In this document: positions 17,309 through 47,374 of the stretch, in pieces | Layout of the letters: each line of letters starts with the position of its first letter | How positions within the stretch are numbered: position 1 is the stretch's first letter | Assembly (NCBI RefSeq): GCF_016234775.1 | Contig: NZ_JACRAH010000003.1 | Coordinates: 1-64,000, forward strand | Origin: Aquabacterium sp. | GTDB lineage: Bacteria > Pseudomonadota > Gammaproteobacteria > Burkholderiales > Burkholderiaceae_C | Length of the DNA stretch: 64,000 bases | Direction of reading: 5' to 3' | Translations under genes and position numbers: made by a program | Notes under the pieces: model-generated | Seen by the model: the letters and a program-made list of their open reading frames with translations, nothing else | The model's database searches: none | Told to the model about the DNA's origin: nothing

Positions 17309-18286
17309 TCAGCCCTTGCGCACCCGGCGGAGTCGGGCCGCCAGCAAACCACCACCCAGCAGCCACATGGCGAAGGTGGACGCCTCCGGCACCGCCGCAG
17401 TCGATACCCCGATGATCACGGGCCCCAGATCCCACCCGATGTAGGTGTAGCCTTTGACCTTGCCGTCAATCACATCCGCCAGGGACTGCCCCAGCAGATC
17501 GCCATTGAAGCTGAACTGGTCCGTGCGCACAAAGCCCAGGTCATAGTTGAACACCTGAACCGTATTGGCCCCCTCCAGAAAATACAGCCGCCCCTCTTCG
17601 TAGCCGATCAGGTTGCCAACCTTGCTTTGCAAGGAAGCGCCACTCCAGCCCGCCGGGCCCGTGGTGAAGCCTGTCTTCTTGGAATCGAACTCCAGCGTGC
17701 CCGTCGGGTAGTTGTAGTAACTCAAGGTGCCATCGGCATCCAACCACAGGGAGTTGTCATCGCCCATGGCCAGCAGATTGTTGTTGCCCAACAGATTCTG
17801 GCCAGCCTGAGGGCCGCCGGTCAACGTCAAGGGAAACACGGCACGATCCACATAGGTGATCGGCTTGTCGATATAGAAGTCCGCCCAGTAGTTCTTGTTA
17901 CCCACCTTCGGATCGACAAAATTGATGTCCCAGTCCTCTGACATGTCCCGCGCACGGGTCAGATTGGTGGAGTTGCCAATCACATTCGGGGAGGTGATCA
18001 GGGCCGTCCACAGGTTGTTGCTGGTGGCCTGGTTGTTGCCGTCGCCAACGACCACCCCTGGGAACATGCTGTAGAGCTGCGCGTGAGGGCGCACGTCATA
18101 ACCCTTGGCCGGATACCACTCTTCAGGATAGACCGTCACGCCACCAGTTGTCGTGTAGCGATCTTCTTCCTGCCAGCGAGATGCCTGCGTCCAGTTGTAG
18201 GTCGTGGCGTGCGCCTGCAAGGCACCCGACGTGGTCAGCGCGACCAGCGCCACCGCACGCCACATTCCAACTTTCTTCTTGATCAT
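17309..18286 (-). CDS. PEP-CTERM-anchored secreted protein, paralog of the neighbouring DUF6701 protein N-terminus
   Basis: 325-residue exported protein of unknown function. It has a signal peptide (about residues 1-28, MIKKKVG to QAHA). A globular ectodomain of about 265 residues follows, and then a C-terminal PEP-CTERM tail with VPEAS, a hydrophobic segment and RRVRKG. Such tails are recognised by exosortase/archaeosortase systems in biofilm-forming Gram-negatives; no exosortase is in the window. The ectodomain aligns with residues about 30-300 of the product of 19821-23105: shared SEDW, LSYY, LIGYEE, LYFL.GANT and GYTYIGWD.GP. The start at 18286 has GGAG about six bases upstream, better than the ATG at 18307. 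Confidence 0.85.
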   Translation of the reverse strand: MIKKKVGMWRAVALVALTTSGALQAHATTYNWTQASRWQEEDRYTTTGGVTVYPEEWYPAKGYDVRPHAQLYSMFPGVVVGDGNNQATSNNLWTALITSPNVIGNSTNLTRARDMSEDWDINFVDPKVGNKNYWADFYIDKPITYVDRAVFPLTLTGGPQAGQNLLGNNNLLAMGDDNSLWLDADGTLSYYNYPTGTLEFDSKKTGFTTGPAGWSGASLQSKVGNLIGYEEGRLYFLEGANTVQVFNYDLGFVRTDQFSFNGDLLGQSLADVIDGKVKGYTYIGWDLGPVIIGVSTAAVPEASTFAMWLLGGGLLAARLRRVRKG

Positions 18287-18814
18287 GAAATACTCCATTC
18301 CAACCATTCAAACTACCTGGCCAACAATATCAATCCACCGAACGGAAAATCAATCCGATCAAATGTCAAAACAAATTCAGTTAATTGAAACGCAAAGGCA
18401 CCGCTGCCGCATTCAAAATCACCGACCAGGATTCACCGAACGCCATTTAAATCCTTCGACCAACTGGCGCAACACACCAACAAGCATTCAACGGATTTCG
18501 TTCAAAACACGTCAGCCGCTCAAGCTCATCAGGCACACCCAGATGGTACGGACGACGAAGGGCCTCGCCTTGACATACCCTGCCCAACCCAGGCAGCCAA
18601 TATCAAACCGGTTTGAATCCGTTAATTAATGCCACACCCCTCCCCCAAGCGCGGGGCAGTAGTTACACCTAGCTCGGAACTACTAGAATGGCAACGCGAA
18701 ATCTGTCGGCTTGTTTACACTTCATGCGCGGAATTCGGCAATATTTGCGAACCACAGTCGCACCTGAATTACCTATATCCGCCCAAGTTTGACATTGACT
18801 GCCAATAATCAAGA
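18287..18814. other. AT-rich divergent intergenic region
   Basis: About 530 bp with no convincing ORF, clearly richer in A/T than its surroundings. It lies between the PEP-CTERM gene (minus) and the AraC-type regulator (plus), so it should hold both promoters. A minus-strand TTGACA is at 18369-18364 and a plus-strand TTGACA at 18789-18794, but neither has a good -10 at normal spacing. It contains the 14-bp palindrome annotated separately and TTAATTAA at 18622-18629. Confidence 0.5.
18603..18616. promoter_or_regulatory. 14-bp perfect palindrome, candidate operator
   Basis: TCAAACCGGTTTGA is a perfect inverted repeat with no spacer, between two divergent genes and about 200 bp before the AraC-type regulator. 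The shape suits a dimeric regulator. AraC proteins more often use direct repeats, so the binder could be something else. Confidence 0.35.
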
Positions 18815-19840
18815 ATGACCCACGCCACGATCTACGTTGCCGGCACCGCTGCCAGCCTGTTGCTCGACTACATGGATCAAGCCGGAACGACGCTGCCCGC
18901 ATTCCGGCAACGCCTCGAAGAGCTGAAAGCGTCGCCGCGCATGCCCATCGCGACCTGGTGGGAGATCCTGGCCGAGTTGCAGCGCGCCCATCCGGTCGAG
19001 ACACTGGGTCTTGCCATTGGCGCTCGGACACAGGCGCACCACATCGGCATGCTGGGCTATCTCGCCATCTACAGCGACACCCTGGTGCAAGCCCTCACCC
19101 GCTTCAGCCGTTTCCAGCGTCTGCTGCACAACATGGCACCCAGCAAGGTCTACGTGGAAGACGACGACCTGATCGTCTGGTGGGACCCCGCTGCGGGCAC
19201 TTCCTCCCTGCTGTCGGACCAGGTGCTGGTTGCCGGCCTGATCACGCTGATCCGGCGGCATGGCGGTGAGCCCAACGTCACACCACACCTCGTCGAGTTC
19301 CCTCAACCACGGCCTGCGGACACATCGGCCTATGAGGCGTTCTTCAATTGCCCTGTGGTGTTCGGGCGCCAGGCCCTGACGGTGCGCCTGCCAGCCCAGC
19401 ACATGAATCTGCCGGTCAGCACACGCGACCCTCACCTCATGAGCCTGCTGGAGCGACAGGCTGAGGCGATGCTGCAGGAACTGCCAGATCGCGACGCACT
19501 GCTCAAGCAACTGCGACACCACATCTCCATGTCGCTGCAGGACGGCACACCCGAGTTCGCAGACGTGGCCGCACGCATGGGCATGGCCGAACGCACGCTG
19601 TACCGCTACCTGCAAGAGCGCGGCTTGCGCTACAAGGTCATCCTCAACGAACTGCGCTTCCAGCTCGCCAGCGATTACATGCAGGACCCCAAGCTGTCGC
19701 TGCCCGAAATCGCGCTGCTGCTGGGTTACGCCGAGCAGAGTGCCTTCTCGCGCGCATTCAAGGAGTGGTCAGGCGAAACACCGGCCAGCTACCGGCGCGC
19801 CCGTGCAGGCAGCAAGCCCGTCAGTACAACTCGCGCGTGA
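18815..19840 (+). CDS. AraC-family transcriptional regulator
   Basis: 341 residues. The N-terminal about 200 residues resemble the arabinose-binding-like domain of OruR/ArgR-type AraC regulators (WWEILAELQRAHP and ETLGLAIG regions). The C-terminal domain is a double helix-turn-helix: FADVAARMGMAERTLYRYLQ, then LPEIALLLGYAEQSAFSRAF and the PASYRR ending. It sits between two genes for paralogous surface proteins, so it probably regulates one or both, in response to an unknown ligand. Its last 20 bp overlap the tail of the convergent large gene. Confidence 0.88.
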   Translation: MTHATIYVAGTAASLLLDYMDQAGTTLPAFRQRLEELKASPRMPIATWWEILAELQRAHPVETLGLAIGARTQAHHIGMLGYLAIYSDTLVQALTRFSRFQRLLHNMAPSKVYVEDDDLIVWWDPAAGTSSLLSDQVLVAGLITLIRRHGGEPNVTPHLVEFPQPRPADTSAYEAFFNCPVVFGRQALTVRLPAQHMNLPVSTRDPHLMSLLERQAEAMLQELPDRDALLKQLRHHISMSLQDGTPEFADVAARMGMAERTLYRYLQERGLRYKVILNELRFQLASDYMQDPKLSLPEIALLLGYAEQSAFSRAFKEWSGETPASYRRARAGSKPVSTTRA

Positions 19841-22800
19841 ACACCACTTTCCTGGACTCGGGCGCGTACACACCAAACGTGGCCCTTGCAGAGGGATCGC
19901 GATCGTAGGTGGTGAGCCCGGCACACGCATTGGCCGAGCCGTTCTGCGCACGCAGCCAGGTCTTGCCCGCGCCGGTTGAGCTGGGGTGGCTGGCCAGGCA
20001 GGATTGATCCGTCATGCTGGCACCGAGGTTGATGGCGAAGTCGACACTGCCTGTGCCATTGGCGCTGGGTGCGCTCAAGGTCAAGGTGCCGTTGCCACTC
20101 AGGATGGAGATGGCTGATGGCGTGGTGGTCCAGGATGAGGTGGTCGCCCCCTTGCTGTCCACATAGTTGCTGCGCACCACCGAGGCAGCCGGGATGGTCG
20201 TACAACTGTCATCGCCGTTGACAACCCAGGTGCGACCATTCCAGTACTGCGCTTGCACGGGAACGGTCAGGCTGCTCTTTTCAGAGCCGAAGGCGTTAGA
20301 GATCTTGATGCGTCCGCTGCGAACCGAGACCGCCTGCTCGGAACCAGCACTGGAGGACACGCCTGCACTGTCGGTTGCCCGAATAACGAGGGAAGCGGGC
20401 GTCGTGAGCTTGTTGGCAAAGGTGAAGGCCGGCAAGGAGGCAGAACCGGACGAGAAGGTGGCGACACCGCTGACGAAATCACTGGCCAACACGGAAGAAG
20501 GCGACAAGGCACCGGCCGGCCCCACCGCAGACAGGGTCACCGCCTTGGCATAGTTGGGTGTCGTGTTGCCCGTTCCGTCATAGTTGACGGTGACGCCCCC
20601 AGTTGCATTGGCCGCCGTCACCGTAAGCGCATCCAGCGGCTGACCGCTATAGAGAAAGCTGCCGCAAGCCAGGCCACGCGTGACATCAAAGTGATGCGGC
20701 ACGAACGGGCCCACCGCACCTGCGCCGCCCGAGCTGCCAGACACGGTCAACCCTGATCCGAGATAGCTGCCACTTACCAGCGACGCCGAGAGATCCCCCA
20801 CACCCACCTCCGACCATGCCAGGTCATTGACCGTGATGACACCCAGATTGAAGCTTGACGACGAGATGTAGGGCGAGCTACCGGATGTGCCGCTGCCGGT
20901 CAGCACGCCCGCCGATGAGTTCGGACCTGTAGGGCGATACTTGTTCCATCCCAGGCGCACATAGTCCGTGGTGGCGGCCGTTTCCTTGCCGAAGTTGGGC
21001 GCGGCGGCCCCAGCACTGTTGCGTGCCGTGATCGTCGCGGCAAAGGCATTGCCCGCCACAAGGGGTGAGGCCGTGACACCACTGATACCAAAGGAGGCGG
21101 GCGACGCAATGAAGGAGCCTGTGCCCGACATGCTCAAACCCGCATCCGCCCCTGCGCCGCTATAGCTGGCCGTCAAGGACACCTGCCCGACGTCCGCGTA
21201 CAGCAGACTGGTCGTGGCCATGCCTGTGGCATCAAAGCTCAGGCTGAGGTTGGCGCCAGCACCATCGCAAGCAGACGCGGCACTGCCACCCGCATTCAAA
21301 GCCGCGCCAGCCATCCGCACAGGCAAGGTGCCGCTGGTTGGATTGCTGTAGGCACACTTGACATTGATGGTCTTGCTGACACTGGCGAACGCTGGCACGC
21401 ACGACGTCGCGCTGGTACCTTGCTTGACAGCCGTCACCGTCATCGCGGCCGAGGTTTCCGAGACGTGATGAGGCACCGACAACAGCAGCCCTGCGGTGTT
21501 CACGCTGTAGTTGCACGAGCCCCCACTGGACGCCGCCGCGCCCAGGCCGCAATACAGGGAAGGAGCGCCTGACGGCGTCATCGTCAAGCCGCTCACCCCC
21601 ACCGTCACATAACCGGAGGCTGGCACCACCGTCACCTGCGCGCTGACCGTCGTGCTGCTGGCGCCCCCGCTGATGCTGAACGCATTGGTCGATGACGGTT
21701 TGACCGTGGCCCCTGCGCCAGACAAGATCAGGTTCCCTGACACCGAGCCCGTGAACGCGCCCGAGCACGCGGCATCTGCACACGCCACGATGGTGAAGGT
21801 GGTGGGCGTGCAGGTCATGCCGGCACTGCTGCTGGTGGTCACCGCCAGATGATGCAGGGGCGCGACGACCGACATGTTGCAGGACGAGACACTGGTCGCC
21901 GTCACGCCAAATCCGCAATAGAGAGAGGGCGAGCCAGCTGGCACGACGGACATGCCGGACAAGGACGCGGTCACGTAGCCCGCCACCGGCGCTGTCGAAA
22001 CGGTCTGTGAGGTGCTGACCGAGGAACTGCCCGAGGCGATGCTGAACGCCACGTTGGTGCCATCCGACATCATCAGGTAGCCACTGACACCACGCGTGTA
22101 CAGCGCACTGCAATCCGAAGTGGCGCACGCCTTGAGTGTGAAACTGATGGCCCCGCCTGCCAAAGCCGAACCAGATGCAGACGTGACCTCGACATGGTCC
22201 AGCGGGCGCAGGGCGGTCACGCCAATGACGATGGGGCCGGCATCCCAACCGATGTAGGTGTAGCCCGGGATCTTGTTGTCAACCAGGTCGCCCAGCGAGT
22301 AGCCAGAAAGCTCGTGACCCAGGACGACCGTATCCGTGCGCGACCAGGTCATGTTCCGGTTGTAGACATGCAGGGTGTTGGCCCCCACCAGGAAGTACAG
22401 ATTGAACTCTTCGTAGCCAATGAGGTATTGCAGCTTGCTGGCCACGGTCTGCCCTGCGAAGGCCCCGCCCGAGAAGGTGGTGGCCGTCGGGTTGTACTCC
22501 AGCAGTCCGCCGACGCCATACCAGTAGTAACTCAAGGAGCCATCGTCGTCCAACATGACAAAGCGCTTGTCACCAAATGCCAGCAGTTGGCTGTTGCCCA
22601 ACACGGACTCGCCACTGTGCGGCCCGCCAGACAAAGAGATGGGATAGACCAGGCGCAAGACCGATGGATCGCCCCACAACCAGGATGCGCCGAAGTACTG
22701 ATTGGCGTACCAGTTGAAATAAAAGTTGTAGCTGGCGTTGTTGGGATCGACGTAATCGATGATCCAGTCCTCCGACAGGTCCTTGGCACGAACCAATGTG

Positions 22801-23105
22801 CTGGAACTGCTGAGGATGTAATTGGACTCGATCAGCGCCTTCCACAGGTTGTCGCAGGTCTGCTTGATGTTGCCCGCCACGACCGCGCCTGGAAAGATGA
22901 TGCTCGTCTGCTGCGGCGGACAGACGTCGTACTGATTGAAATTGCCGAACTCTTCGGGGTAAACGACCGCCCCTGCGGACGAATAGCGCCCCCATTCGTT
23001 CCACCGTGCAGCAAAGGTGTAGTTGCCAGCGTAGTGGTAAGCATGAGCCACCCCACTAAACAACAAGATGAGCACGCAGATCAACCGCCCCAACCGCAAC
23101 AGCAC
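19821..23105 (-). CDS. Large secreted DUF6701/MshQ-like protein with PEP-CTERM-paralog head
   Basis: 1094 residues. Signal peptide about 1-22 (GTG start, LICVLILLFSGVAHA). Residues about 30-300 are a domain homologous to the ectodomain of the PEP-CTERM protein at 17309-18286. Residues about 305-530 hold two Cys-containing Ig-like repeats (CATSDC and CADAAC starts, each ending SPSLYCG- or APSLYCG-like). From about 660 to the end it matches the DUF6701 region of MSHA-pilus MshQ-like proteins (SGRIKISNAFGSE, ARATFGVY, VVFTRELY). No membrane anchor is seen. No other MSHA genes are in the window. Inference: a surface or pilus-tip adhesin-like protein. Confidence 0.85.
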   Translation of the reverse strand: MLLRLGRLICVLILLFSGVAHAYHYAGNYTFAARWNEWGRYSSAGAVVYPEEFGNFNQYDVCPPQQTSIIFPGAVVAGNIKQTCDNLWKALIESNYILSSSSTLVRAKDLSEDWIIDYVDPNNASYNFYFNWYANQYFGASWLWGDPSVLRLVYPISLSGGPHSGESVLGNSQLLAFGDKRFVMLDDDGSLSYYWYGVGGLLEYNPTATTFSGGAFAGQTVASKLQYLIGYEEFNLYFLVGANTLHVYNRNMTWSRTDTVVLGHELSGYSLGDLVDNKIPGYTYIGWDAGPIVIGVTALRPLDHVEVTSASGSALAGGAISFTLKACATSDCSALYTRGVSGYLMMSDGTNVAFSIASGSSSVSTSQTVSTAPVAGYVTASLSGMSVVPAGSPSLYCGFGVTATSVSSCNMSVVAPLHHLAVTTSSSAGMTCTPTTFTIVACADAACSGAFTGSVSGNLILSGAGATVKPSSTNAFSISGGASSTTVSAQVTVVPASGYVTVGVSGLTMTPSGAPSLYCGLGAAASSGGSCNYSVNTAGLLLSVPHHVSETSAAMTVTAVKQGTSATSCVPAFASVSKTINVKCAYSNPTSGTLPVRMAGAALNAGGSAASACDGAGANLSLSFDATGMATTSLLYADVGQVSLTASYSGAGADAGLSMSGTGSFIASPASFGISGVTASPLVAGNAFAATITARNSAGAAAPNFGKETAATTDYVRLGWNKYRPTGPNSSAGVLTGSGTSGSSPYISSSSFNLGVITVNDLAWSEVGVGDLSASLVSGSYLGSGLTVSGSSGGAGAVGPFVPHHFDVTRGLACGSFLYSGQPLDALTVTAANATGGVTVNYDGTGNTTPNYAKAVTLSAVGPAGALSPSSVLASDFVSGVATFSSGSASLPAFTFANKLTTPASLVIRATDSAGVSSSAGSEQAVSVRSGRIKISNAFGSEKSSLTVPVQAQYWNGRTWVVNGDDSCTTIPAASVVRSNYVDSKGATTSSWTTTPSAISILSGNGTLTLSAPSANGTGSVDFAINLGASMTDQSCLASHPSSTGAGKTWLRAQNGSANACAGLTTYDRDPSARATFGVYAPESRKVVFTRELY

Positions 23106-23334
23106 ATGGCCCCCAAGTCATGCTGTCATACCCAAAGCGGGCATGGTTATCCAACATGAGGAACATGTTCGTTGCCTGCAGCAATCCTGTCTTGCCCGCC
23201 TTGCCCACAATTTGACAAAACCTGCCGCCATCACCAATTTGACATGCCGAAAAGCCCATGAAGAACGCACGCACGCCCAACCCCTGAACGCGGGAGTCGT
23301 ACCCGAATTCCGTGACATGGATCAACGAAAGTCA

Positions 23335-40928: not shown

Positions 40929-42341
40929 TCAGAGCGCCTGGGGCGCCGTTGGAAGCAGAAGACTAGCCAGAACTTGTGGGTCAAATGATGACAGATGGGG
41001 GGCGATCAATGCACGTTGATCAACGCCACTCACGCCCATCCAGTTCGCCAATGCGCCTGCCAACTGGTCCACAGCCATCGTAGGCAGCAAGCGGCCCTGG
41101 CCGATGTCCTGCGCGCCGTTGAGCCCTGCGTCAGGTAGCGCACCGTAGAAGCGCCCGCCTTGCACGGCCCCACCCAGCACCAGGTGATGGCTGCCCCAGC
41201 CGTGGTCCGACCCATCGCCATTGCTGCTGAGCGTGCGCCCGAAATCGCTGGCCGTGAAGGTGGTGACACGATCGGCCACGCCCAGTTCGTTGGTGGCATC
41301 GGCAAAGCTCTTGAGCGCATCGGCCACCTGGCCGAGCAAGACCGGATGCTGGCTACCCAGGTTGTCGTGCAGATCAAAGCCGCCCAGCATCACGAAGAAC
41401 ACCTGCCGGCTCAAGCCCAACTGGCCGCGGGCCGCCACCATGCGCGCCACCATCTTCAACTGCGCAGCCAGGCGATTGCCTGCCGTGAAAGACGTGCTCA
41501 TGGGCTGCACCCCGGCCAATGCGGCGCTGAGCTCGGCCTGGGCCTCCACGGCACGGCTCATGGTGCGCGCGTGCATCTGCGCCATCACATGCGTGCTGCC
41601 AGGCTGGGTCACCACACGCCTGAACAGCTCGGAACATGCGGCCGATCCGTACATCAGGCCATCGGCTGCCCGCAAAGGCGCAGGCCCCGCCAGATCCAGC
41701 GTGTAGGGCGTGCTTTGATCACCCGACAGGAACACCGCATTGCCCGCCATGTTCACGCAGGTGAAAGCGGCCTTGCCATTGCCCGACATGAACAGATCAC
41801 CCATGCGCCCGCCCCAGCCCGATTGCGCCCCCTCATGCGCATGCGACTGCCAGACCGATTGCTGGTCATTGTGCGAAAACAGCTTGGGCGGCAAAGGCAA
41901 ACGACGGGCGCGAAAATCGTCGAGCGTGGTGGGCTGAACCAGCGGGCCGATGTTGAGCAAGACCGCCAGCTTGCCCATGTCGAAGTAAGGCTTGATCGGG
42001 GCCAGTGCCGGAGCCAGGGCCATCTGCCGGGCATCGGGCAAGGCTTGCGCTGGCGTGAGCGCGGTGGCCTGCAAACTGGCTTGCGTCACGGCCAGTGTAG
42101 GCCGTGCCGCGCTGTAGCGCAGGTAGCTGGGCGTATCGAAGGGGATCAGGGTGTTGGCCTGGTCATTGCCCCCTTGCAGGAACACGCACACCAGCGCCTT
42201 GTAATCATTGCTGGATGACGAAGCCGCCGCCGCATCGGCCATGGCCGCGAGATTGAAGGCCCACGGTGCGGCAGACCCCAGCATGGACAGGGCACCTGCG
42301 CGGCGAAGGAAAGCACGGCGACTCGAATGGATGGCAGACAT
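40929..42341 (-). CDS. Tat-exported DUF1501 protein, copy 1
   Basis: 470 residues with a twin-arginine signal (RRAFLRR, then a hydrophobic stretch to about residue 40). The DUF1501 body follows, related to the alkaline phosphatase/sulfatase superfamily: VCVFLQGGNDQANTLIP, FSHNDQQSVWQSH, FTASDFGRTLSSNGDGSDHG and WGSHHLVLGG. Function unknown. It sits 13 bp after a DUF1800 gene. It is homologous to copy 2 at 44140-45558, with a 53-bp stretch (41212-41264) differing by one base from 44408-44460. Confidence 0.92.
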   Translation of the reverse strand: MSAIHSSRRAFLRRAGALSMLGSAAPWAFNLAAMADAAAASSSSNDYKALVCVFLQGGNDQANTLIPFDTPSYLRYSAARPTLAVTQASLQATALTPAQALPDARQMALAPALAPIKPYFDMGKLAVLLNIGPLVQPTTLDDFRARRLPLPPKLFSHNDQQSVWQSHAHEGAQSGWGGRMGDLFMSGNGKAAFTCVNMAGNAVFLSGDQSTPYTLDLAGPAPLRAADGLMYGSAACSELFRRVVTQPGSTHVMAQMHARTMSRAVEAQAELSAALAGVQPMSTSFTAGNRLAAQLKMVARMVAARGQLGLSRQVFFVMLGGFDLHDNLGSQHPVLLGQVADALKSFADATNELGVADRVTTFTASDFGRTLSSNGDGSDHGWGSHHLVLGGAVQGGRFYGALPDAGLNGAQDIGQGRLLPTMAVDQLAGALANWMGVSGVDQRALIAPHLSSFDPQVLASLLLPTAPQAL

Positions 42342-42354
42342 GTCCAGCGCTTTC

Positions 42355-44034
42355 TCAGACTTGAACCAGGTACTCGGGCGAGCACAGCACGATCAGCATC
42401 GCCGTGATCACGCGCCGCAAGGCACCATCGCTCTGGCTCATGGGCAAGGTGGTGATGGCGGTCACCAGATCGGAGACCAGCCCAGCCGACAAGGCCCGCC
42501 CCGTGAACACGAGGTTGATGCGGTCGACCAGCGCCGCCGGATCGCTGGCCAATGGCAGCCAATCAGCGTAGTCGGGTTTCACACCAGCCGCGCCAAAGGG
42601 CAGCACCTGAAACATGAAGTTGGCGTAGCCGATCACCGTGCACTCATCGGTGATCTGGAACTCGGGGGCTACCAGCCCTTGTTGCGCCAGGGCCGACTGC
42701 GGCGGCACATACGCAGGCCGAAAGAAGTTGAACACCGACGGTGATCGCATCGGGCTTTGCCCCAGCCTGTCGGAGGCGGACAAGTCACCCACGTTCCACA
42801 GGCCATCGGTACATTGCGGCCGCACCACGCGCGCCCACTGCAGGAAACGCAGCACGGGCTCACGCAACTTGCCTGTGACGTCGCTGCTCATGGGCGACAA
42901 GCCCAGTCGCACCTCGACATCCAGCAAGATGGTACGGATCACGGCTTTCATGTCGCCCCGCACACCCTGCCCGTTGTCCTGGAACACCGCGGCCACGCGA
43001 CCCACGTAATCCGCGCTCGGGTTGCTGCTGGTCAGGCGCTGGATGAGCCGGCGCGCCACGAAGGGCGCCGCATTGGGGTGCTGGCAGATGGTATCCAGCG
43101 CCATCTTCAAGGCCTGCTCACCCGGCGTGCTGCCGGCAATGGTGGTACCCAGAAAGGTCTTGTCTGCTGCGCTGTGGGCGGCCTGATTGAAGACCATGGC
43201 GCGCTGCGTGTAGGCGGGGCTGCTGGCATCGAAGCGATCGAAGTCCCAGCCAGTGAACACGCGCGCCAGGCCGGTGATGTCATCGTTGCCATACGTTTCG
43301 GTCGCCTGCCCGTTGGCGCCCAGTTGGGGCGTGCCGTCAGGCTGCAATTGCACCAGGCCGATGGTGAACAGCTGCAGCAACTCGCGCGCAAAGTTCTCAT
43401 CGGGCCGGCGGCCCAAGGCATCCTCCTTGCTGCTGCCGCGCATGCTGAGGTACACACCCATGGCCGGGCTCAAGGTGATGCGCTCGATCAGCGTGCGGAA
43501 GTTGCCGAAGCACTCGGCCTCCAGCAGATCCCAGTAGGCGGCACACGCGAACTGCCCCCAGGGCACCGGCATGTTGCGCACCGACACGACGAAGATCTCG
43601 GAGAGCGCCAGCACCACGCGCTGGCGCAAGGTGTCCGGGCTGTTGAGCAGGCGAGACCAGATGGCGTTGTCGATGCCGACATCGGTGGACTTGTACTGTG
43701 CGGCACCGAAGCCCTTGGCCATCATCCAGCCCCAAAGTGAATCGGAGGCCGGCATGGCGAACTGCTGATCCAGCCAGGCATCCCAGCCCAGTTGCGTCAG
43801 TTGATCGATGTCCTGGGGGGTGGCCGCCAGGGTGGCCTGCCCCAGAAAGCGTGCGGCGCTGTCGGGCATGGGCGGCGGCAGCTGATCCGGCGTGCAGGCG
43901 GACAAGCTCGCCACAGCCAGTACAGCACGGGTCAGCCCCGTGGACGCAGATCGCAGCGAGGCTGCTTGCACGCCAGCGGGCAAGGACTCGCCGGACGGCG
44001 ATGCCGATTCAAACCGACCGCATTGCACATCCAT
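42355..44034 (-). CDS. DUF1800 lipoprotein, copy 1
   Basis: 559 residues. A hydrophobic segment ends in LSAC (lipobox-like, about residues 44-47), then the DUF1800 domain: ARFLGQATLAATPQDI, FALSEIFVVS-like LALSEIFVVSVRNMP, GRRPDENFARELLQLFTIGL, RRLIQRL and LREPVLRF. Family members are exported and almost always paired with DUF1501; biochemical role unknown. Its first about 30 residues before the signal are unusual; a GTG about 21 codons in could be the real start. Confidence 0.9.
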   Translation of the reverse strand: MDVQCGRFESASPSGESLPAGVQAASLRSASTGLTRAVLAVASLSACTPDQLPPPMPDSAARFLGQATLAATPQDIDQLTQLGWDAWLDQQFAMPASDSLWGWMMAKGFGAAQYKSTDVGIDNAIWSRLLNSPDTLRQRVVLALSEIFVVSVRNMPVPWGQFACAAYWDLLEAECFGNFRTLIERITLSPAMGVYLSMRGSSKEDALGRRPDENFARELLQLFTIGLVQLQPDGTPQLGANGQATETYGNDDITGLARVFTGWDFDRFDASSPAYTQRAMVFNQAAHSAADKTFLGTTIAGSTPGEQALKMALDTICQHPNAAPFVARRLIQRLTSSNPSADYVGRVAAVFQDNGQGVRGDMKAVIRTILLDVEVRLGLSPMSSDVTGKLREPVLRFLQWARVVRPQCTDGLWNVGDLSASDRLGQSPMRSPSVFNFFRPAYVPPQSALAQQGLVAPEFQITDECTVIGYANFMFQVLPFGAAGVKPDYADWLPLASDPAALVDRINLVFTGRALSAGLVSDLVTAITTLPMSQSDGALRRVITAMLIVLCSPEYLVQV

Positions 44035-44139: not shown

Positions 44140-45558
44140 TCAAAATAGATTGGCCGATGGCGACGCGCCAGGGAATTTGGCCAGATGCGGTGCGATCTGT
44201 TGCAAAGCCTTGGGGTCTGTTACGCCCATCCAACCTGCCAGGGAAGCCGCCAGATGATCGACCGACATCGTGGGCAACAAGCGCCCCTGGCCGATGTTGT
44301 GCGCGCCGGTTTCGTGGTCGGACACGTCCGGCCATTCGCCGTAGAAGCGCCCACCTTGCACCGCGCCGCCCATCACCAGATGGTGACTGCCCCACCCGTG
44401 GTCCGAACCATCGCCATTGCTGCTGAGCGTGCGCCCGAAATCGCTGGCGGTGAAGGTGGTTACCTGCTTGCTCATGCCCAGATCGGTGTTGAACTGCAAC
44501 AGGGCGTCACCCAGCTTGCTCAGCAGATCCTGATGCTGCGTGCTCAGGTTGTCGTGCATGTCAAAGCCACCCAGAGACACGAAGAAAACCTGGCGCTTGA
44601 CACCCCCGTTGCCCCCCAGCTTTTGCTGCGCCGCGATGATGCGGGCAACCGTGTTGAGCTGATAAGCCAGCGGATTGTTGCCACCAGGCGCCAGGGCCTC
44701 AGGCTTGCTCACCTGATCCAGTTGGGCTCGCAGCAACTCATTGGTGACGATGGCACGGCTCATGATCGCACTGTGCTCCTTGGCCAGCCTGTGCACACTG
44801 GGCTCTTCGGTCTGAGCCAGCTTGAGGAAGGCATCGGTGCAGGCCTGAGAACCAAACACATTGGCCGCCGTCTTTGCCAGCAAGGCATCGGGGCCGTGCG
44901 GATTGACCATGAACTGCTCGGCCTGCGCACCAGCCACGAAGACGGTGTTGCCCGACAGGTTCACACAAGTCAACGATGTGGCCGCATTGCTGGCCAACCA
45001 GGCATCGCCGATCAAACCGCCCCACCCCACGGTAGCGCCCTCTGCCGAATAAGACTGCCAGACCGACTGCTGGTCATTGTGCGAAAACAGCTTTGGAGGC
45101 AGGTCGACGCTACGCGACAGGAACTGCTCGCGACTCGTTGGCTCAACCAGGGGCCCGATGTTGAGCAGCACGGCCAGGCGCTTGTCCTCGTTGAACAGCT
45201 TGCTCAGCTTGCTCAAGCCTGGCGCCAGAGCCAGTTGCCGCCCGTTGAGCCCAGCCGATGTAGAGGGCGTCAAGTGGCTCTGCGCCATCTGGTCCAAGGG
45301 CAAGGCCAGCCCGCCTCGCAGACGCGCGTACAGCTGGTAGCCGGCATCGTCAACCGGCACGATGGTGTTGCCCTGGTCATTGCCGCCTTGCAGGAACACG
45401 CAGACCAGCGCCTTGTAGTCATCGGTCTGATCGGCTTGCGCGGCGGCGGCCTCGGCGAGTGCGGCCAGGTTCATGGCCCAAGGCACCGTCAGGGCGCCCA
45501 TTGAAAGGGCACCGCTGCGACGCAAAAAGCCACGGCGATTCAGCTTGTCATGGTTCAT
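44140..45558 (-). CDS. Tat-exported DUF1501 protein, copy 2
   Basis: 472 residues with a Tat signal (NRRGFLRRSGALSMG). The signature blocks match copy 1: VCVFLQGGNDQGNTIVP, FSHNDQQSVWQSY, FTASDFGRTLSSNGDGSDHG. Sixteen bp after the second DUF1800 gene. A 105-bp gap separates it from copy 1 of DUF1800, so all four genes may form one transcript. Confidence 0.92.
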   Translation of the reverse strand: MNHDKLNRRGFLRRSGALSMGALTVPWAMNLAALAEAAAAQADQTDDYKALVCVFLQGGNDQGNTIVPVDDAGYQLYARLRGGLALPLDQMAQSHLTPSTSAGLNGRQLALAPGLSKLSKLFNEDKRLAVLLNIGPLVEPTSREQFLSRSVDLPPKLFSHNDQQSVWQSYSAEGATVGWGGLIGDAWLASNAATSLTCVNLSGNTVFVAGAQAEQFMVNPHGPDALLAKTAANVFGSQACTDAFLKLAQTEEPSVHRLAKEHSAIMSRAIVTNELLRAQLDQVSKPEALAPGGNNPLAYQLNTVARIIAAQQKLGGNGGVKRQVFFVSLGGFDMHDNLSTQHQDLLSKLGDALLQFNTDLGMSKQVTTFTASDFGRTLSSNGDGSDHGWGSHHLVMGGAVQGGRFYGEWPDVSDHETGAHNIGQGRLLPTMSVDHLAASLAGWMGVTDPKALQQIAPHLAKFPGASPSANLF

Positions 45559-45574: not shown

Positions 45575-47374
45575 TCAACGTTGAACCATGTAGTCAGGCG
45601 AGGTCAGCATCAGGAAGAACGCTGCCTTCACGCGCACGGTCAGATCTGCATCCGTGACCGCGGGCAGGCTCTGGATGGCGTTCACGATCACGTCCACGGT
45701 CACCTGGGCCAGCGCCCTGCCCGTGAGCACCAGGTTCAACTGGTCAACCAGTTGCTTCGCATCCGGTGCGTAGACCAGCCAATCCTGGTAGTCCACGGCG
45801 ATGTTCACTTCGGGTGCGCCACCCATGTGTCGCAGCATGAAGTTGGCATAGCCAATGACCGTGGACTCGTCGGTGATCTGGAACTCCGGCGCCACGAAGC
45901 CATCGGCATTCACCCCTGATTTCAAGGGCACATAGCCAGGCCGGAAGAAGTTGAACACCGATGGCGAGCGCAAGGGGCTTTGCCCCAGGCGATCGGAAGC
46001 GGACAGGTCCCCCACGCCCCACAGGCCGTCGGTTGACTTCATACGGGCCAGACGGCCCCATTGCACGAAGCGCAGCATGGGCTCGCGCAACTTGGAGCGT
46101 CGCACGGCCGCATTGCCAGTCAGTGGATCACGCGCCAGGGGATCGGTCAGCACCGCCGTGATCACCGCCTTGAGATCGCCTCCCGTGTCCTTGAACACCT
46201 GGGCTACGCGTGACACATGCAAGGGCTCGGGATTGCTGCTCACCAGGCGCTGGATGAGCTGCTTCGAAATAAACGGTGCCACATTGGGGTGTGCGCAGAT
46301 GCCATCAAGCACCTGCTTGAGCTCGTCGGCCGGTGTGGCCGCACCAGCCTTCACCTCAATGGCATAGGGCTTGCCAGCGAAGATGGTCTTGGCTGTTGCA
46401 TCGTGCAGGTCGCCATGCGCCACCATGGGCCTGGCGGTGTAGTCAGGCGTGGTGTCGGCGTCATAGGCGGGCACGCGGAGCGAATCCATGTCCCAGCCTG
46501 TCATCACCTTGGCCAGCTGGGTGATGTCGTCGTTCGTGTAGGTTTCAATCGACTGACCTCGACCATCCTTGGCCAGCGTGCCATCCTGGTTGAGCATGTA
46601 CAGCCCGATCGTGAACAGCTGCAGCAGTTCGCGCGCATAGTTTTCATCGGGGCGTCGGCCCGAAGTGTCATCACCCTTGCGGCTACCTCTCATGCTCAGG
46701 TAGACCCCCATGGCAGGCGACAAGGTGACGGCCTCGATCAACTGCCGGAAGGTGCCAAAGCAGTGCGACTCCAGCAGATCCCAGTACGCCAGACAGGCGA
46801 ACTGCCCCCACGGAATCGGCATGTTGCGGATCGACACCACGAAGATCTCGGACAAGGCCAGCGTCACACGCTGACGCAGCACGTCATCAGCGGTGAACAA
46901 GCGGAACCACAGCACATTGTCCAGACCGTAGTCGGAGCCCTGGTAGAGCTTGAACGAGCTTGTCAGGCGCAGGTCATGGCCCAGCTGCCAGGCGGTTCTG
47001 TCTTCTGGCCGGCTGGCGTTCGCGTTGCGCGCAGGCTTGGCGAACTGGGCATTCAACCAGGCGCGGTAATCCAGCTTGCCAGCCACCAGCGCGGAAATGT
47101 CATCTGGGGTGGCGCACAAGCCGGCCTGAGACAGGAAGCGCGATGCGGCATCCTCATCGGTCAACGGCACCGCTGGCTCGCCCGTAGATGGATCGGCGGG
47201 AGAGGGATCAGGAGAGGGTGCGGTCGGGGCTGGGTTGCCACCGCCACCACCGCACCCCGTCAAAGACGCGCTGACCGCCACCACGGCCGCTGCCCCCACC
47301 CAAGCATTCAATGGCGACGCCGCGCCCGCCGATGCATCCAGCTGCACCGGGCCGTTCTCCCTGATATCGCTCAT
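45575..47374 (-). CDS. DUF1800 lipoprotein, copy 2
   Basis: 599 residues. The hydrophobic segment ends in the lipobox LTGC, followed by a Gly-run and a Pro/Ser/Asp-rich linker to about residue 75. The DUF1800 domain then runs ASRFLSQAGLCATPDDI, LALSEIFVVSIRNMP, GRRPDENYARELLQLFTIGL, KQLIQRLVSSNP and KLREPMLRF. First gene of the duplicated cluster. Likely anchored to the outer membrane and facing the Tat-exported partner. Confidence 0.92.
   Translation of the reverse strand: MSDIRENGPVQLDASAGAASPLNAWVGAAAVVAVSASLTGCGGGGGNPAPTAPSPDPSPADPSTGEPAVPLTDEDAASRFLSQAGLCATPDDISALVAGKLDYRAWLNAQFAKPARNANASRPEDRTAWQLGHDLRLTSSFKLYQGSDYGLDNVLWFRLFTADDVLRQRVTLALSEIFVVSIRNMPIPWGQFACLAYWDLLESHCFGTFRQLIEAVTLSPAMGVYLSMRGSRKGDDTSGRRPDENYARELLQLFTIGLYMLNQDGTLAKDGRGQSIETYTNDDITQLAKVMTGWDMDSLRVPAYDADTTPDYTARPMVAHGDLHDATAKTIFAGKPYAIEVKAGAATPADELKQVLDGICAHPNVAPFISKQLIQRLVSSNPEPLHVSRVAQVFKDTGGDLKAVITAVLTDPLARDPLTGNAAVRRSKLREPMLRFVQWGRLARMKSTDGLWGVGDLSASDRLGQSPLRSPSVFNFFRPGYVPLKSGVNADGFVAPEFQITDESTVIGYANFMLRHMGGAPEVNIAVDYQDWLVYAPDAKQLVDQLNLVLTGRALAQVTVDVIVNAIQSLPAVTDADLTVRVKAAFFLMLTSPDYMVQR

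Follow-up and report, generated by a model that had tools for sequence, protein, structure and literature searches.

A candidate AraC-controlled regulon deploying one extracellular domain in several formats in Aquabacterium

The analysis of a 64,000-nucleotide stretch of Aquabacterium sp. (NCBI RefSeq assembly GCF_016234775.1, contig NZ_JACRAH010000003.1, positions 1 to 64,000; hereafter the window) outlined a three-gene locus encoding a protein with a PEP-CTERM sorting tail (P0001), an AraC-family regulator (P0003) and a giant DUF6701 protein (P0002), in which the two surface proteins have a domain of about 265 residues in common. The comparative evidence leads us to propose, with moderate confidence, that a small AraC-controlled regulon, with this locus as its core, deploys one Aquabacterium-specific extracellular module in several formats. 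The window belongs to a genome of 4.27 Mb in 68 contigs, called G000 among its relatives, and the three genes are located between mraZ and feoA/feoB (flanking genes named by eye). All three open reading frames claimed in the initial annotation are present, and Pfam supports each of their labels.

A shared domain displayed in three formats

The P0001 gene (17309..18307, minus strand) encodes 332 residues encompassing a signal peptide (recognized by eye), the shared domain (17396..18205, minus strand, delimited by sequence comparison) and a sorting tail at residues 305-328 (17324..17395, minus strand), which matches PF07589 with 25.1 bits against a cut-off of 20.7. In the 1094-residue P0002 (19821..23105, minus strand) the same domain constitutes the N-terminal head (22215..23024, minus strand). 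The paralogy proposed for these two regions was borne out by BLASTP (137/328 identical positions, 42%; 234 bits, E=1e-73), in whose alignment the common motifs singled out by the initial annotation are visible, and the local alignment of the two surface proteins scored 608, the highest score among 1000 shuffles being 73. At the nucleotide level the aligned codons of the two window copies are only 58% identical, indicating that the duplication is old.

Gene calls around 18 copies of the domain in Aquabacterium genomes identified six PEP-CTERM-tailed proteins, six DUF6701 fusions and six untailed secreted proteins. The idea that the domain is displayed by different anchors was thus upheld, but the six untailed copies raise the number of display modes from two to three. 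In a maximum-likelihood tree each format formed one group, with support of 100/99, 99/97 and 100/98; we speak of groups and not of proven clades because the tree is midpoint-rooted. Since each format corresponds to one tree group, a single origin fits the fusion, and likewise the tail. We rejected the possibility that the two window copies arose by local tandem duplication, as the formats form separate groups across genomes and each window head belongs to its own genus-wide group. Seven pairs of copies showed purifying selection, with ratios of nonsynonymous to synonymous substitution rates (dN/dS) of 0.05-0.08 for tailed copies, 0.15-0.20 for giant heads and 0.15 for untailed copies. A cysteine pair at alignment columns 39 and 62 was observed in five of the six giant heads, including that of the window, and in none of the 12 other copies.

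All six untailed genes adjoin a gene for a secreted-looking protein of 210-240 residues, here termed p228, which lies directly upstream on the same strand in five cases and is divergent in one. The p228 copies tested have no NCBIfam match. As a unique marker of the untailed genes p228 was rejected, its family being present in 40/42 Aquabacterium genomes; this genus-wide family of related proteins often occurs in tandem pairs (e.g. G000:C66:17450-19160). Comparison of p228 with a broken PEP-CTERM gene in G027 returned only a weak match of 22 bits, and the link is not pressed. Near the araC orthologue of G007 (59%) another PEP-CTERM protein is encoded (L115 4160-4921), the last third of which resembles p228 by eye; this protein gave no significant match to the p228 profile.

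Distribution and predicted fold of the domain

A single-sequence search detected the shared domain in 9/100 relatives, every one of them Aquabacterium, and a profile of 18 rows recovered 18 copies in the same nine of 42 Aquabacterium genomes, each with an E-value of 3.5e-115 or better. Two extra weak profile matches (E of 0.17 and 0.85) were obtained in G019; the weaker is a PEP-CTERM protein (L039 9107-9991) encoded upstream of a pair formed by p228 and an untailed gene. Searches against samples of genomes from the family (2/399, both Aquabacterium), the order (1/300) and the phylum (1/398, in both of the latter cases the window genome alone) returned no other genus. Of 19 candidates from a pattern scan of 84,980 species genomes, five loci were confirmed. 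Plasmid carriage of the domain found no backing, with no plasmid match. Within the samples searched, the shared domain is limited to Aquabacterium.

The initial annotation had placed the domain outside any known family, and this held: no match over threshold was returned by Pfam, NCBIfam or PHROGs. A phage origin was rejected, the best PHROGs hit having an E-value of 0.07. Among solved chains, none was matched by the domain via phmmer, nor by its profile at an E-value below 0.9. Among the matches listed by Foldseek and VIA-align, the rows that could be placed by name were beta-propellers, and their likeness is to small ones such as glutaminyl cyclase and olfactomedin domains. In the model proposed below, the shared module is probably a small beta-propeller. 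Profile self-comparison for internal repeats gave nothing significant (best off-diagonal probability 0.2-1.3%), and for this reason blades are not claimed from the sequence.

A conserved motif coupled to the AraC regulator

The araC gene (18815..19840, plus strand) encodes a 341-residue regulator (P0003), with matches to PF12625 (9.9e-28) and to the helix-turn-helix domain PF12833 (HTH_18; 3.5e-19), the HTH_AraC model falling just under its own cut-off (26.3 vs 26.6 bits). No named equivalog was identified for this protein, the best NCBIfam model being QhpR with 189 bits against a cut-off of 250. The araC gene is transcribed away from the PEP-CTERM gene and towards the giant, with a 20-base overlap between araC and the 3' end of the giant.

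Comparison of upstream regions yielded the motif GGCAG-N4-TGTCAA, chosen with six of the nine promoters discussed below in view. Allowing up to one mismatch, it occurs in the window only at 18570 (minus), 18592 (plus), 18789 (minus) and 23212 (minus), that is, in the intergenic region between the PEP-CTERM and araC genes and in the promoter of the giant, so that instances of the motif lie upstream of all three genes. In the intergenic region, the operator-like sites GGCAGGGTATGTCAA (18570..18584, minus strand, exact match) and GGCAGCCAATATCAA (18592..18606, plus strand, one mismatch) are the two halves of an inverted pair, and GGCAGTCAATGTCAA (18789..18803, minus strand, exact match) is found 11 bases before the araC start codon; the fourth site, GGCAGGTTTTGTCAA (23212..23226, minus strand, exact match), is located 107-121 bases upstream of the start codon of the giant. 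The number of instances in the window is not unusual (shuffle mean of 1.88, with 13/100 shuffles reaching four), but their placement is. Genome-wide, eight exact matches were found, three of them at the locus, in intergenic DNA, four inside genes and one intergenic elsewhere, against two for a reversed-pattern control. The inverted pair, with its 7-base spacer, is kept in G000, G027 and G002, and in the latter two genomes a pair of araC-proximal sites forms a direct repeat at 20 bases.

Across genomes, where an araC orthologue matches at 59% or more (five genomes), the motif (up to one mismatch) precedes 9/9 domain genes or operons, against 0/9 in the other four domain genomes, two of these nine motif-free regions being gaps inside likely operons (those of the untailed genes in G016 and G041; G016 has a site with two mismatches). 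The motif-bearing genes include two on a contig other than that of araC, the untailed operon of G002 and the giant of G007; the giant of G027 is also on a separate contig, but this contig abuts araC. Permuted versions of the motif (n=400) matched at most 2/9 promoters, and 18 of the 23 motif matches in 273 kb of domain loci fall in the nine domain promoters. The three promoters that were not in view when the motif was chosen (those of the untailed operon of G002 and of the untailed gene and the giant of G007) all match with one mismatch, each such match being expected by chance in about 4-5 of 300 shuffles.

The phylogenetic distribution of the regulator follows that of the domain. Orthologues of araC at 44% or more were identified only in the domain-bearing genomes G000, G002, G027, G018, G007 and G016, and G033 contains a homologue that runs over two frames (L034 8518-9517) and lacks the motif in the promoter of its PEP-CTERM gene. 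An orthologue is hence present in 6/9 domain genomes, plus one broken copy, and in 0/33 others (Fisher test, 1.3e-6 with the broken copy and 1.6e-5 without it). The next-best relatives of araC, at 39% or less, are found in domain-bearing and domain-free genomes alike. The data indicate that the motif and the araC orthologue are tightly coupled across genomes.

That the motif belongs to a different regulator or constitutes a common promoter element, with araC merely nearby, is improbable in our estimation. In favour of it, TGTCAA is part of the exact sites, the one adjacent to araC could be a promoter element, and these genomes have many AraC-family members, with 11-44 first-look candidates in each. 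Against this, motif presence follows this particular araC orthologue from genome to genome, unlinked genes included, and both the inverted pair and the 20-base direct repeat are conserved. Moreover, with only eight exact matches in 4.27 Mb, the motif is not a general promoter element. The sequence patterns thus suggest that the AraC regulator binds the GGCAG-N4-TGTCAA motif, and the regulator very likely controls the shared-domain genes that lie beside it.

Gene order across domain-bearing genomes

The initial annotation had expected the three genes to be conserved together as a locus, and for gene order this expectation failed. The PEP-CTERM and araC genes are divergent neighbours in G000, G002, G016 and G033, though not in G041, and in G027 they are divergent and separated by two fragments of another PEP-CTERM-type gene. 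Convergent orientation of araC and the giant was seen in G000 and G018. In G027, araC is cut by the end of one contig, and the contig of the giant ends in DNA encoding, on the opposite strand, an AraC C-terminus (76% across residues 307-340, including one in-frame stop close to the end of the contig); because both contig ends reach araC, the trio was counted as adjacent in this genome, and it is adjacent in only 2/9 domain genomes, those of the window and G027. In the domain genomes besides these two the giant is unlinked or absent. The link of the domain genes to AraC hence does not stand as gene order and stands as regulation, with the orthologue confined to domain genomes and the motif tying in unlinked copies.

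The patchy spread of the domain (9/42 genomes), the rarity of the adjacent trio and the retention in G033 of one copy beside a broken araC would all be accommodated by ordinary paralogue scatter, in which chance duplications and fusions of a secreted domain particular to this lineage gave rise to the formats, and these have no joint role with the regulator. We regard this explanation as unlikely, given that each format forms one well-supported group, that all the compared copies are under purifying selection, and that motif presence tracks araC presence, in nine of nine cases against none of nine.

DUF6701 proteins as a constant body with variable heads

The body of the giant (residues 527-1092; 19830..21527, minus strand) matches PF20419 over profile positions 9-576 of 577 (E=6e-93). 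Between head and body, residues 298-530 form two tandem repeats of about 116 residues each, 43% identical (21516..22214, minus strand). The repeats described in the initial annotation are therefore real, but their designation as immunoglobulin-like is unproven, since no immunoglobulin family was matched.

Proteins with DUF6701 are encoded in 24/42 Aquabacterium genomes, comprising 9/9 with the shared domain and 15/33 others (Fisher test, p=0.003, related genomes not being independent). Among 44 DUF6701 open reading frames, one of them a fragment, the last 450 residues constitute one similarity group, and the first 260 residues fall into five groups of 20, 11, 6, 3 and 3 members plus the fragment, the group of six being the head found in the window. 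In Aquabacterium, DUF6701 is thus a constant body bearing five unrelated head classes.

We take DUF6701 to correspond to MshQ, a match of names that is supported here by gene neighbourhood alone. An MSHA-type pilin or minor-pilin homologue was found within 8 kb of 35/38 other DUF6701 genes and of 0/6 genes with the shared head (Fisher test, 1.2e-5), as counted on fetched stretches of which some are short, G027:C159 most of all. In keeping with this, the window giant is not encoded in an MSHA-type pilus locus. The window genome contains such a locus elsewhere (L044, G000:C50, 178-13707), where three pilin-like genes and the gene of a PilB/GspE-type ATPase with an MshE-related cyclic di-GMP (c-di-GMP) motif (76 bits, cut-off 38) precede two DUF6701 giants of a different head class. 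Each of the nine domain genomes has another DUF6701 gene, which in G027 is only a 137-residue fragment at a contig end.

In Vibrio cholerae, MshQ is described as a putative adhesin, and losing it is reported to reduce MSHA at the surface while retraction remains (PMC7096442), and exchange of mshQ is reported to affect squid colonization by Vibrio fischeri (PMC4094467). The window giant resembles MshQ in its full DUF6701 body and in that the other two copies of the genome lie in an MSHA-type pilus locus. It differs in being encoded away from pilin genes and beside its own araC, and in having a head common to non-pilus proteins. The giant may serve as a pilus adhesin. A possible, if less favoured, alternative is that AraC control operates as proposed and that the orphan giant, with no pilus involved, has its role on the cell surface or in the matrix. 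The absence of neighbouring pilin genes for all six giants with the shared head fits this alternative, and three other DUF6701 genes likewise lack pilin neighbours; it is weakened by the presence of another DUF6701 gene in all nine domain genomes and by the otherwise pilus-linked nature of DUF6701 in the genus.

Elsewhere in the window, the genes at 40929-42284 and 44140-45558 (both minus strand) are tandem paralogues, 53% identical, each adjoining a second long gene (42355-43869 and 45575-47170, respectively) in a two-gene unit that looks duplicated.

Proposed model and related systems

The model we favour is an AraC-controlled regulon whose giant works together with a pilus. The regulator would act through the motif that precedes the PEP-CTERM gene, araC itself and the giant and, in relatives, unlinked copies as well. 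A signal, probably a small molecule recognized by the Arabinose_bd-type N-terminal domain, would lead AraC to activate these genes, and the site beside the araC start codon may allow AraC to limit its own production. An exosortase would sort the PEP-CTERM copy to the cell surface or matrix; the window genome has four exosortases, each with a PF09721 match above threshold. The DUF6701 copy would be an accessory adhesin on the MSHA-like, c-di-GMP-type pilus whose genes lie at another locus, the shared head replacing the heads of the two DUF6701 proteins of the pilus locus itself. In all formats the module would bind a common ligand, for instance a matrix polymer or a substrate surface, and would probably help cells to adhere to something.

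A PEP-CTERM protein from a related group, PepA of Aquincola tertiaricarbonis, is reported to act in flocculation or aggregation and in exopolymer binding (PMC9850573). P0001 is a PEP-CTERM protein like PepA, but gives no match at all to the PepA model NF033554. Control also differs, since PepA is under RpoN and the window genes have no RpoN-like site: RpoN-type sites were rejected for the domain genes, with at most 8/10 positions matched in any of 11 upstream regions, at least 9/10 being sought. In the literature searched, PEP-CTERM and Aquabacterium appeared together only in a mosquito metagenome paper, and PEP-CTERM and the AraC family only in work unrelated by title. The word DUF6701 was not found in the literature search, nor were MshQ and LamG together.

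The nearest printed idea that we found is that of pilus tips accessorized with PilY1 variants. In Myxococcus xanthus, PilY1 is described as having a constant C-terminal part, varied N-terminal modules and differently regulated paralogues (PMC9109919, PMC13190605), and its authors speculate on the accessorizing of pilus tips (PMC9109919). The combination of a constant C-terminus with swapped N-terminal modules is shared with DUF6701 bodies and heads. The protein family and the pilus type are different, control in PilY1 is ascribed to the HsfBA phosphorelay, and no surface protein that stands alone and shares the head is named in the abstracts of these reports.

More tentatively, one AraC may co-deploy a matched set of the same module, borne on a c-di-GMP-gated retractile pilus, fixed to the surface or matrix, and freely secreted. 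Such a set could work as a grapple, a docking site and a soluble linker for one ligand, or mediate head-to-head contact between kin cells. If this is true, it would define a modular adhesion system in which the conserved unit is the head and not the scaffold. The findings add an undescribed extracellular domain and show DUF6701 (MshQ-type) proteins to be scaffolds on which heads are swapped, much as in PilY1. With a compact regulator and four candidate operators in 4.7 kb, the locus would be well suited to study how pilus-borne, surface-fixed and secreted versions of one module are coordinated, and may help to find out what MshQ-type heads bind.
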